Assembly: GCF_013215705.1 (NCBI RefSeq)
Contig: NZ_JABSQR010000004.1
Location: forward strand, 248,001-312,000
Direction: 5' to 3'
DNA: 64,000 nucleotides
Source of the DNA: Moritella sp.
Lineage (GTDB): Bacteria > Pseudomonadota > Gammaproteobacteria > Enterobacterales > Moritellaceae
Translations under genes and position numbers: made by a program
In this document: one piece after another, positions 27,738 to 58,193 of the stretch
Layout of the letters: every line of letters starts with the position of its first letter
Position numbering within the stretch: position 1 is the first letter of the stretch
The notes under the pieces: model-generated
The model's database searches: none
Seen by the model: the letters and a program-made list of their open reading frames with translations, nothing else
What the model was told of the DNA's origin: nothing

Positions 27738-27828
27738 TGGCGGAGGAGGAGAGATTTGAACTCTCGAGGAGCTATTAACCCCTGCTGGTTTTCAAGACCA
27801 GTGCATTCGGCCACTCTGCCACCCCTCC
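27738..27828 (-). tRNA. tRNA-Ser (anticodon UGA), copy 1
   Basis: A 91-base class II tRNA. Acceptor strands GGAGGGG and CTCCTCC pair (one G-U), followed by G and an encoded CCA. The anticodon stem CTGGT/ACCAG encloses the loop CTTGAAA, giving UGA, which reads UCA and other UCN serine codons. A long variable arm (CAGGGGTTAATAGCTCCTC) and a T arm GAGAGTTCAAATCTCTC are present. It is identical to copy 2. Confidence 0.97.
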
Positions 27829-28107: not shown

Positions 28108-28198
28108 TGGCGGAGGAGGAGAGATTTGAACTCTCGAGGAGCTATTAACCCCTGCTGGTTTTCAAGACCAGTGCATTCGGCCACTCTGCCACCCCTCC
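28108..28198 (-). tRNA. tRNA-Ser (anticodon UGA), copy 2
   Basis: Identical over all 91 bases to copy 1, 370 bases away, with the same cloverleaf, UGA anticodon and encoded CCA. The identical tRNA-terminator block with differing flanks indicates a tandem duplication. Confidence 0.97.
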
Positions 28199-56038: not shown

Positions 56039-56941
56039 ATGAATCTATCGTTAAAGCAATTACGTGTTTTTGTTGCCGTCAGCCAGCAACAAAGTATTAC
56101 CCACGCAGCAAAGACATTATTTCTAACCAAAGCAGCGGTAAGCATGGCATTAAGCGAACTTGAGAATCAATTGGGGCAACAATTATTTGATCGTACCAAT
56201 AACCGCTTACATCTAAACCCTTACGGTCAACGTTTATTACCTATCGCTGATGAATTACTGCAGCGCGCAGCCAGCATTGACACCTTATTCCTACAATCAG
56301 GTCAACTCATTGGTGAGCTTGCAATTGGTGCCAGTGAAACTATAGGTAACCAGTTATGTCCTTGGCTGCTTGCCCAATTCATTCAATTGACAGCACATAC
56401 CCAACAAACGCTGCATATCAGCAACAGCGCAAATATTGCTGATATGATATTAAGTTACCAATTGGATATCGGGCTTATCGAAGGTGATGTTAAGCACAGT
56501 GACATTGAAACAATCCCTTGGATAAAAGATGAAATGTGCATTATTGTCGCCTCAAATCATGCATTGCTGAAAAATACCAGCTTAACGCTGCCAGACTTAC
56601 GCGACAATACTTGGGTATTACGCGAGCCGGGGTCAGGAAGTCGGGCTTTCTTTGAAAGCCACATTGCCCCCTCTGTTGCACAATGGCAGCTGGCCTACGA
56701 GCTAAACTCGATTGAAGCACAACTTAACTTTGTCGCCGCTGGATTAGGTCTGGCCTGCGTCTCTAAATTCAGTGCGACACATGCCTTGGCCAATGGTCGG
56801 GTGCAGATATTGCAGCTAGATAACAAATTAGAACGACAATACAAAATAATAATGCACAAAAAAAAATACAAAAGTGAATTAATATCCGCGTTTATCGACT
56901 TTAGCCAACAGTGGGATGCAACAGCCTTAATCACCACATAA
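56039..56941 (+). CDS. LysR-family transcriptional regulator (YeiE-like)
   Basis: A 300-residue LTTR. The N-terminal winged helix is LSLKQLRVFVAVSQQQSITH and AAKTLFLTKAAVSMALSELE; the effector domain covers about 90-295 (GELAIGASETIGNQLCPWLL; LDIGLIEGDVKHSDIE; WVLREPGSGSRAFFESHI). It resembles E. coli YeiE, which responds to sulfite-type signals. Target genes are not evident; the flanking HD-GYP and purine genes are both possible. Confidence 0.85.
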   Translation: MNLSLKQLRVFVAVSQQQSITHAAKTLFLTKAAVSMALSELENQLGQQLFDRTNNRLHLNPYGQRLLPIADELLQRAASIDTLFLQSGQLIGELAIGASETIGNQLCPWLLAQFIQLTAHTQQTLHISNSANIADMILSYQLDIGLIEGDVKHSDIETIPWIKDEMCIIVASNHALLKNTSLTLPDLRDNTWVLREPGSGSRAFFESHIAPSVAQWQLAYELNSIEAQLNFVAAGLGLACVSKFSATHALANGRVQILQLDNKLERQYKIIMHKKKYKSELISAFIDFSQQWDATALITT

Positions 56942-57154: not shown

Positions 57155-57382
57155 AAAAAAAAGGAGTAGCAAACGCTACTCCTGTCGTAATAGTTAATTA
57201 AATTATTACGCCTGAATACATCGCCAACCTAGCTGGCAATTTCAGGATAAAGTATACTTACTTCTTTGATATAAAATATTCAAATAGCTGTTGCTAGGCA
57301 AGCGGTCGAAAGGAATAAAAGTACCCTTGCCAAATAAGTACACATACAACTCAAACTCGTGCGAAGCTTGAGTATCCGTGCT
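57155..57382 (-). ncRNA. Candidate structured small RNA
   Basis: No reading frame of useful length exists here on the minus strand, yet the segment looks transcribed leftwards. A TTGACC-N17-TTTAAT promoter lies just upstream, and the 3' end is GGAGTAGC-loop-GCTACTCC followed by eight Ts (57155-57182). Between them are further inverted repeats: ACTCAA/TTGAGT (57349-57373), GGCAAG/CTTGCC (57297-57331), CCTGAA/TTCAGG (57211-57246) and CGTAATA/TATTACG (57186-57210). The 3' end faces the stop of the LysR gene. A TATACT box at 57251-57256 could start a shorter form of about 90 bases. It is unlike any small RNA I know by sequence. Regulation and targets are unknown. Confidence 0.55.
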
Positions 57383-57388
57383 AAGACC

Positions 57389-57417
57389 ATTAAACAAAAA
57401 ACTGACTTACTGGTCAA
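57389..57417 (-). promoter_or_regulatory. Sigma-70 promoter of the candidate small RNA
   Basis: TTGACC (57412-57417) and TTTAAT (57389-57394) are separated by 17 bases on the minus strand. Each differs from consensus by one base. Start predicted near 57382. Confidence 0.6.
57402..57417. promoter_or_regulatory. RutR-like operator overlapping the small RNA promoter
   Basis: TTGACCAGTAAGTCAG (minus strand) has one perfect RutR half (TTGACCA) and a partial second half relative to TTGACCA-N2-TGGTCAA. It lies about 140 bases upstream of a RutR-like TetR gene and overlaps the -35 box of the small RNA. Confidence 0.4.
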
Positions 57418-57554
57418 GTTTTAATGTGGGATTTGTTAGTTTTTTGTAAAACTCCTATACAATCATATGTCATTATATAATGCATACAGTTTTATATAGC
57501 TTTCAATAATGTCTATAACTTTATATAAGTAACTGCGAAAGGATGAATATAAGT

Positions 57555-58193
57555 ATGTCTACCATACGGAAGAAAAACGAAGCAAAGATTTTAAAGGCTG
57601 CCAGTCAAGTGTTTGCCAGTGAAGGTTACGCAGCAACAAAAACCATTGATATCGCGAAACTTGCCGGTGTACCTAAGGCTAATGTCTATTATTATTTTGG
57701 TAATAAAGAGACACTATACTCTGCTGTATTGGAAACGATCATTGAACCATTACTCAGCGCAACTCATCCGATTGAAACCATTGATAACCCCGCTATCGCC
57801 TTAACCGAATACATCAAGACCAAGCTAATCATCTCTCGAGATTATCCTTATGCATCTAAAGTATTTGCCAATGAGATCATGCGTGGTTCGCCATTATTAT
57901 CACCTGAAATACGCCAGCGTTTAATGAATCAAAGTACCTTTTTGCTCGATAAATTTACGCAATGGATTGACGCGGGTCAGATGGATAACGTATCACCACA
58001 CCATCTGTTATTTATGATCTGGTCTTCGACCCAAACTTATGCCGACTTTAGCTGGCAGATTAATGCCGTGATGGGGAAATCATCACTGACAGCCAGTGAT
58101 TATGATGATGCGGCGCATCTCATCAGCCAACTGGTCCTAAAGGGCTGTAATGTGCGCTCTGGTGACGACACCGTGATATCGACTTCTGGTTAG
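57555..58193 (+). CDS. TetR-family regulator, RutR-like
   Basis: A protein of about 212 residues. The helix-turn-helix is KILKAASQVFASEGYAATKT, with DIAKLAGVPKANVYYYFGNK following. The C-terminal part (KLIISRDYPYASKVFANEIM; HHLLFMIWSSTQTYADFSWQ) matches RutR, which senses uracil/thymine and controls pyrimidine and purine use in E. coli. In this gene neighbourhood, a role in purine or pyrimidine catabolism is likely. The ATG at 57555 is preferred since the earlier one (57543) abuts AAGG too closely. Its stop overlaps that of the convergent glycosyltransferase gene. Confidence 0.85.
   Translation: MSTIRKKNEAKILKAASQVFASEGYAATKTIDIAKLAGVPKANVYYYFGNKETLYSAVLETIIEPLLSATHPIETIDNPAIALTEYIKTKLIISRDYPYASKVFANEIMRGSPLLSPEIRQRLMNQSTFLLDKFTQWIDAGQMDNVSPHHLLFMIWSSTQTYADFSWQINAVMGKSSLTASDYDDAAHLISQLVLKGCNVRSGDDTVISTSG

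Follow-up and report, generated by a model that had tools for sequence, protein, structure and literature searches.

A probable small regulatory RNA gene divergent from a RutR-like repressor gene in Moritella

A transcription unit between the LysR and TetR genes

The window analysed here, a stretch of 64,000 nucleotides from Moritella sp. (contig NZ_JABSQR010000004.1, positions 248,001 to 312,000), contains an intergenic gap of about 600 nt between a LysR gene and a gene for a TetR protein. The open reading frame (ORF) of LysR ends at 56941 and that of TetR starts at 57543 or 57558, in agreement with the gap between a LysR and a RutR-like gene described by the first-pass annotation. On the minus strand of this gap lies a 229-nt unit (57155-57383) that has a promoter and an intrinsic terminator of its own and that, judged from its sequence, very probably constitutes a genuine gene for a small regulatory RNA (sRNA). 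The features of the locus are as follows.

56039-56941, plus strand: LysR gene, flanking and convergent with the sRNA gene; its best NCBIfam match is YeiE, below the cut-off
57155-57383, minus strand: probable sRNA gene, called on conservation and fold z-score; transcript of about 228-229 nt with its 3' end in a T8 run
57155-57183, minus strand: intrinsic terminator hairpin and T8 tail, kept in nine species
57389-57394, minus strand: -10 hexamer TTTAAT (TCTAAT in G010), at 17-nt spacing in all ten copies
57402-57417, minus strand: imperfect 16-bp palindrome TTGACCAGTAAGTCAG overlapping the -35 hexamer, candidate operator of the RutR-like repressor
57412-57417, minus strand: -35 hexamer TTGACC, invariant in ten species
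57558-58193, plus strand: gene of the RutR-like TetR repressor, divergent from the sRNA gene; in-frame alternative start at 57543

The promoter, TTGACC-17-TTTAAT, agrees with the sigma-70 consensus at 10 of 12 positions, and the expected +1 lies at about 57382/57383, 7 nt past the -10 hexamer. Our promoter scan demands an A at the second position of the -10 hexamer and hence does not list this site. Since promoter-like sites are common by chance (8.4 matches expected in a 2.5-kb AT-rich region), the call rests on conservation rather than on the scan: both hexamers and their 17-nt spacing are maintained without an indel in ten species. The near-consensus promoter noticed at first therefore holds. 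The extent first given, 57155-57417, holds for the existence of the unit but not for its upstream end, as 57417 is the edge of the -35 hexamer and the transcript is expected to start at 57382/57383.

The terminator, AGGAGTAGCGTTTGCTACTCCT followed by the T run, lies on the same strand as the promoter, as first described, and consists of a stem of nine pairs (57183-57162), five of them G-C, with a loop of four and T8 at 57162-57155. It is the strongest of five terminator-like sites in the 2.5-kb region, against 2.1 expected. It faces left, where the ORF list indeed shows no minus-strand gene that could own it.

Between LysR and the sRNA gene, a LysM/FimV-like gene convergent with the latter is found in part of the genus. 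It encodes 266 aa in M. dasanensis (L011:698-1498) and has nearly full-length matches in G001, G002, G005, G007, G008 and G010, only fragments in the window genome (57031-57156, plus strand) and in G003, and no match in G004, G006 and G009. Elsewhere in the window, two minus-strand tRNA genes (27741-27828 and 28111-28198), 370 nt apart and with identical scores, are probably a tandem duplication.

Conservation and fold of the RNA

The unit is present once per genome in all 11 Moritella species examined, always at the same LysR/TetR locus, where a family-2 glycosyltransferase gene comes after tetR. Complete-length copies are found in ten of them, the window genome and nine sisters. RNA identity to the window copy ranges from 81 to 98% in the nine other species, as compared with 51-91% at 4-fold degenerate sites in the neighbouring tetR gene, indicating that the constraint on the RNA is stronger than on silent sites. 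The spacer between the promoter and tetR is 40-61% identical in eight of the nine and 95% in one. Two copies depart from this pattern, and their sequences look like loss in progress. In G003, one of the complete-length copies, the terminator is eroded, with broken stem pairs and T5 only; the RNA is 91% identical beside a nearly identical tetR (4-fold sites 89%), suggesting a decaying copy. In M. dasanensis, the promoter and the 5' half are deleted up to the tetR leader, and the terminator hairpin is degraded. The sequence upstream of tetR is deleted there too (L011, about 1500-1645), yet the TetR protein is about 96% identical.

A covariance model of the sRNA, applied to 395 genomes from the order, scored 225-280 bits with the complete copies, 85 bits with the truncated copy, and at most 28 bits elsewhere. 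The matches outside the genus (17-28 bits) were rejected, the alignments shown covering mainly terminator hairpins whose core resembles GCGAUUGC. In different families of the order, terminators that combine a GCGAUUGC or GCAAUUGC core with a long T run are found repeatedly (L024-L031, L274), and such sequences can pass for sRNA matches when genomes are searched with a model. A match of 52 nt in G020 (E 3e-5, near mdh) was also discarded as AT-rich chance, as the covariance model finds nothing at that locus. Phage and plasmid collections gave only chance matches of 20-50 nt, and the model detected no sRNA at the Vibrio loci encoding TetR orthologues (54-56% identity), where TetR follows other genes. 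As far as searched, the sRNA appears confined to Moritella, and within the genus the conserved copy that the first-pass annotation had proposed to look for is there, with sequence, stems, promoter and terminator kept. No Rfam 15 family scored above its gathering threshold, the best on the sRNA strand being AbsR28 (17.4 against 50 bits), so that the initial impression of no recognisable sRNA family is upheld. GcvB (RF00022) in particular is found neither in the window nor at the locus, and has no match over the cut-off in the 11 Moritella genomes.

The minus strand folds with a minimum free energy of -74.1 kcal/mol, versus -48.1 +/- 4.2 kcal/mol for 200 dinucleotide shuffles (z -6.3), the opposite strand being less extreme (z -4.3). 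Copies from three relatives yield z-scores of -6.2, -4.1 and -4.7. The window, G006 and G009 copies, folded singly, share one architecture: a hairpin at the 5' end, then a four-way junction, two further hairpins (the first imperfect, the second AU-rich) and the terminator; in G010, the minimum-energy fold differs and the centroid keeps most helices, including the four-way junction. Nine helices are kept across the alignment, where at least four internal inverted repeats had been noticed initially. Those upstream of the terminator are distributed as follows.

57347-57375, minus strand: helix 1, the 5' hairpin, with two two-sided changes (C-G to U-A and U-A to A-U)
57252-57343, minus strand: helices 2-5, a long closing helix and three hairpins in a four-way junction, 97-100% of cells paired
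57307-57322, minus strand: apical loop of helix 3, core AUUCCUUUC; A68-C76 invariant in ten species
57211-57246, minus strand: helices 6-7, an imperfect hairpin, with A-U to U-G changed on both sides in three species
57186-57210, minus strand: helix 8, an AU-rich hairpin

The consensus-fold energy reaches a z-score of -8.1 against column-shuffled alignments, the structure conservation index is 0.77 versus 0.46 +/- 0.07 in shuffled alignments, and 96.8% of the cells are paired in the named structure versus 36-46% when the partners are slid. The expectation that stems would covary in related genomes is borne out in part: the stems are kept and the covariation score (0.058) is above that of the slid controls (0.016-0.029), but two-sided changes are limited to four pairs (seven cells), and about 10% of the shuffles reach four pairs. 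These changes are few because most stems hardly vary. We conclude that the main support for the structure comes from the stability of the fold and the lack of broken pairs, covariation making a modest contribution. With its own promoter, an intrinsic terminator, no conserved ORF, and structure and sequence conserved in relatives, the unit has the sequence-level attributes of an intergenic trans-acting sRNA.

The RutR-like neighbour and a candidate operator

The protein encoded divergently from the sRNA matches PF08362 with 178 bits and is 37% identical to E. coli RutR, and its score with the RutR model TIGR03613 is 167.9 bits, under the cut-off of 368. RutA, the marker of the pathway controlled by E. 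coli RutR, is absent from all 11 Moritella genomes. Because of this absence and of the score below the NCBIfam cut-off, we refer to the neighbour as RutR-like, not RutR; with RutA absent, the ligand and regulon of the repressor need not be those of RutR. In RutR, acetylation of K52 and K62 abolishes DNA binding, and the uracil-pocket residues include Y97, W167, Q171 and Q179 (PMC10891134). The RutR-like protein keeps K52, K62, Y97, W167, Q171 and Q179, and has a leucine in place of W77.

In all ten complete copies, the -35 hexamer constitutes the left arm of the palindrome TTGACC-N4-(A/G)GT(C/T)(A/G)G. The operator consensus of E. coli RutR is TTGACCANNTGGTCAA, and the palindrome resembles this consensus, the window copy having three mismatches to it and an imperfect right half. 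Sites of 16 bp with up to four mismatches to the RutR box are frequent by chance, 37 of them lying in 64 kb. In the 11 genomes, the strict form TTGACCN4GGTCAR is limited to seven sites, four at the sRNA promoter, two inside ftsZ and one elsewhere. An operator upstream of carA was also considered and rejected, as no genome has a site with fewer than three mismatches and none is consistent (one strand was read, the box being palindromic). Since the -35 hexamer is embedded in a RutR-operator-like palindrome and the RutR-like gene is divergent, the neighbour probably controls the sRNA in response to a ligand, and repression of the sRNA by this TetR protein is a reasoned inference from the sequence. 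We know of no sRNA under RutR control. If the RutR-like repressor controls the sRNA, the locus would illustrate how a genus without RutA makes use of such a repressor. That the genus-specific sRNA is the principal output of a pyrimidine-sensing repressor, so that with RutA absent a nucleobase signal would regulate many mRNAs post-transcriptionally through this RNA, is a more ambitious proposal that we consider improbable.

In several Vibrio species (L043-L047), the TetR orthologue (54-56% identity) is encoded just downstream of a tartronate semialdehyde reductase-like gene, itself preceded by likely hyi and gcl genes (named by eye), a context hinting at a role of this repressor subfamily in glyoxylate or purine catabolism.

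Mode of action, alternatives and known systems

The gene-like unit, its conservation and structure, its promoter, terminator and palindrome, and the presence of Hfq, encoded in 11 of 11 genomes, are computational observations, and we infer from them how the RNA may be expressed, repressed by TetR, released by a ligand and paired with targets. The RutR-like repressor would bind the palindrome over the -35 hexamer and block RNA polymerase. A small ligand, which may be uracil or another pyrimidine, would free the promoter of the repressor, and the sRNA would then be transcribed. The RNA would end at the intrinsic terminator, leaving a U tail to which Hfq can bind, and pairing of the apical loop with purine-rich ribosome-binding sites (GAAAGGAA type) would reduce the translation of target mRNAs. 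The loop in question is the largest apical loop of the RNA, and its core AUUCCUUUC is the complement of a strong ribosome-binding site, GAAAGGAAU, making it a candidate anti-Shine-Dalgarno seed. We judge this model, in which a 228-229-nt trans-acting RNA has a gene of its own that is TetR-repressed and ligand-released, to be as likely right as wrong.

Target searches were conducted with the loop. Upstream of ATG codons, the seed pattern GAAAGGAAT has 96 matches in the 11 genomes, versus 65 in the reversed control. Across 2 Mb of one genome, the best loop-target energies do not surpass those obtained with shuffled loops. The leading individual candidate, luxO, was abandoned, its strong pairing being found in one species only and not conserved. 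A thiC site (gene named by eye) recurrent in 7 of 11 genomes was also set aside, as it may reflect ordinary Shine-Dalgarno conservation.

The lack of a target signal in the 2-Mb scan and the non-conserved luxO pairing would fit a real sRNA that acts by binding protein, the four-way junction serving as a scaffold or sponge, as would the near-invariance in sequence of junction helices 2, 4 and 5, which exceeds what pairing alone needs. However, no protein-binding motif was recognised in the sRNA, the two GGA motifs counted by eye in the transcript argue against CsrA titration of the CsrB kind, and the combination of an invariant C/U-rich apical loop and a U tail is characteristic of sRNAs that act by pairing, so that we hold protein binding to be unlikely. 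Somewhat less likely still is a feedback RNA directed mainly at the divergently transcribed tetR mRNA, the leader of which (CGAAAGGA or CGAAGGGA) would pair with the loop UCCUUUCG in a two-gene loop. Seven to eight contiguous pairs are possible in every species (duplex of -12.5 to -16.7 kcal/mol), but over 2 Mb of one genome, the loop pairs with 1.5-14% of the translation starts at least as well as with the tetR leader. This pairing is therefore unremarkable, being expected of any Shine-Dalgarno site.

The unit could also be a small-protein gene or a dual-function RNA. The first-pass annotation had reported no reading frame; this is true of frames conserved across species, but the window copy does hold short ORFs, TTG-initiated ones of 45-51 aa and an ATG-initiated one of 21 aa, which are frameshifted or stopped in other species. 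The 21-aa ORF, starting at an AUG at transcript position 39 and encoding the hydrophobic peptide MCTYLARVLLFLSTACLATAI, is intact in the window, G005, G002 and G003. However, the start codon is lost in G004, no frame of 15 aa or more begins at position 39 in G007 and G008, a 1-nt deletion changes the C-terminal frame of the peptide in G006, G009 and G010, and most alignment indels are not multiples of three, making a coding function very improbable. Finally, promoter-like matches are frequent in AT-rich DNA, but the conservation and fold statistics contradict a chance assembly of promoter-like and hairpin sequence, and that there is no gene at all is scarcely credible.

We thus retain the loop-pairing, TetR-repressed sRNA as our working model. 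Both its controller candidate, which adjoins the sRNA, and its candidate seed are testable, and the unit represents an RNA family that Rfam lacks, in marine bacteria adapted to cold and pressure, including a fish pathogen. A genus-restricted trans-acting sRNA beside its probable regulator is a known kind of arrangement. In GcvB-GcvA, OxyS-OxyR and SgrS-SgrR, the sRNA is likewise divergent from the gene of its own regulator. Like these, the Moritella RNA has its own promoter and intrinsic terminator and is transcribed away from the gene of its probable controller; unlike these, the regulator is a TetR, RutR-like repressor, and the sRNA sequence is unrelated. Our literature search found no description of this sRNA. 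For the chromosome of M. viscosa 06/09/139, Table 1 of the genome paper gives a total of 261 annotated sRNAs, with no family, structure or function given there (PMC4462113); the G009 copy, at C1:1497015-1497229, may be one of them, and the sRNA is thus possibly already annotated without a function. With respect to the E. coli RutR regulon (PMC10891134, PMC6245113), the Moritella locus is alike in six of the key DNA- and ligand-binding residues and in a palindrome of about 16 bp at a divergent promoter, and differs in a protein that is only 37% identical, scores below the RutR cut-off, carries leucine for W77 and belongs to a genus without RutA.
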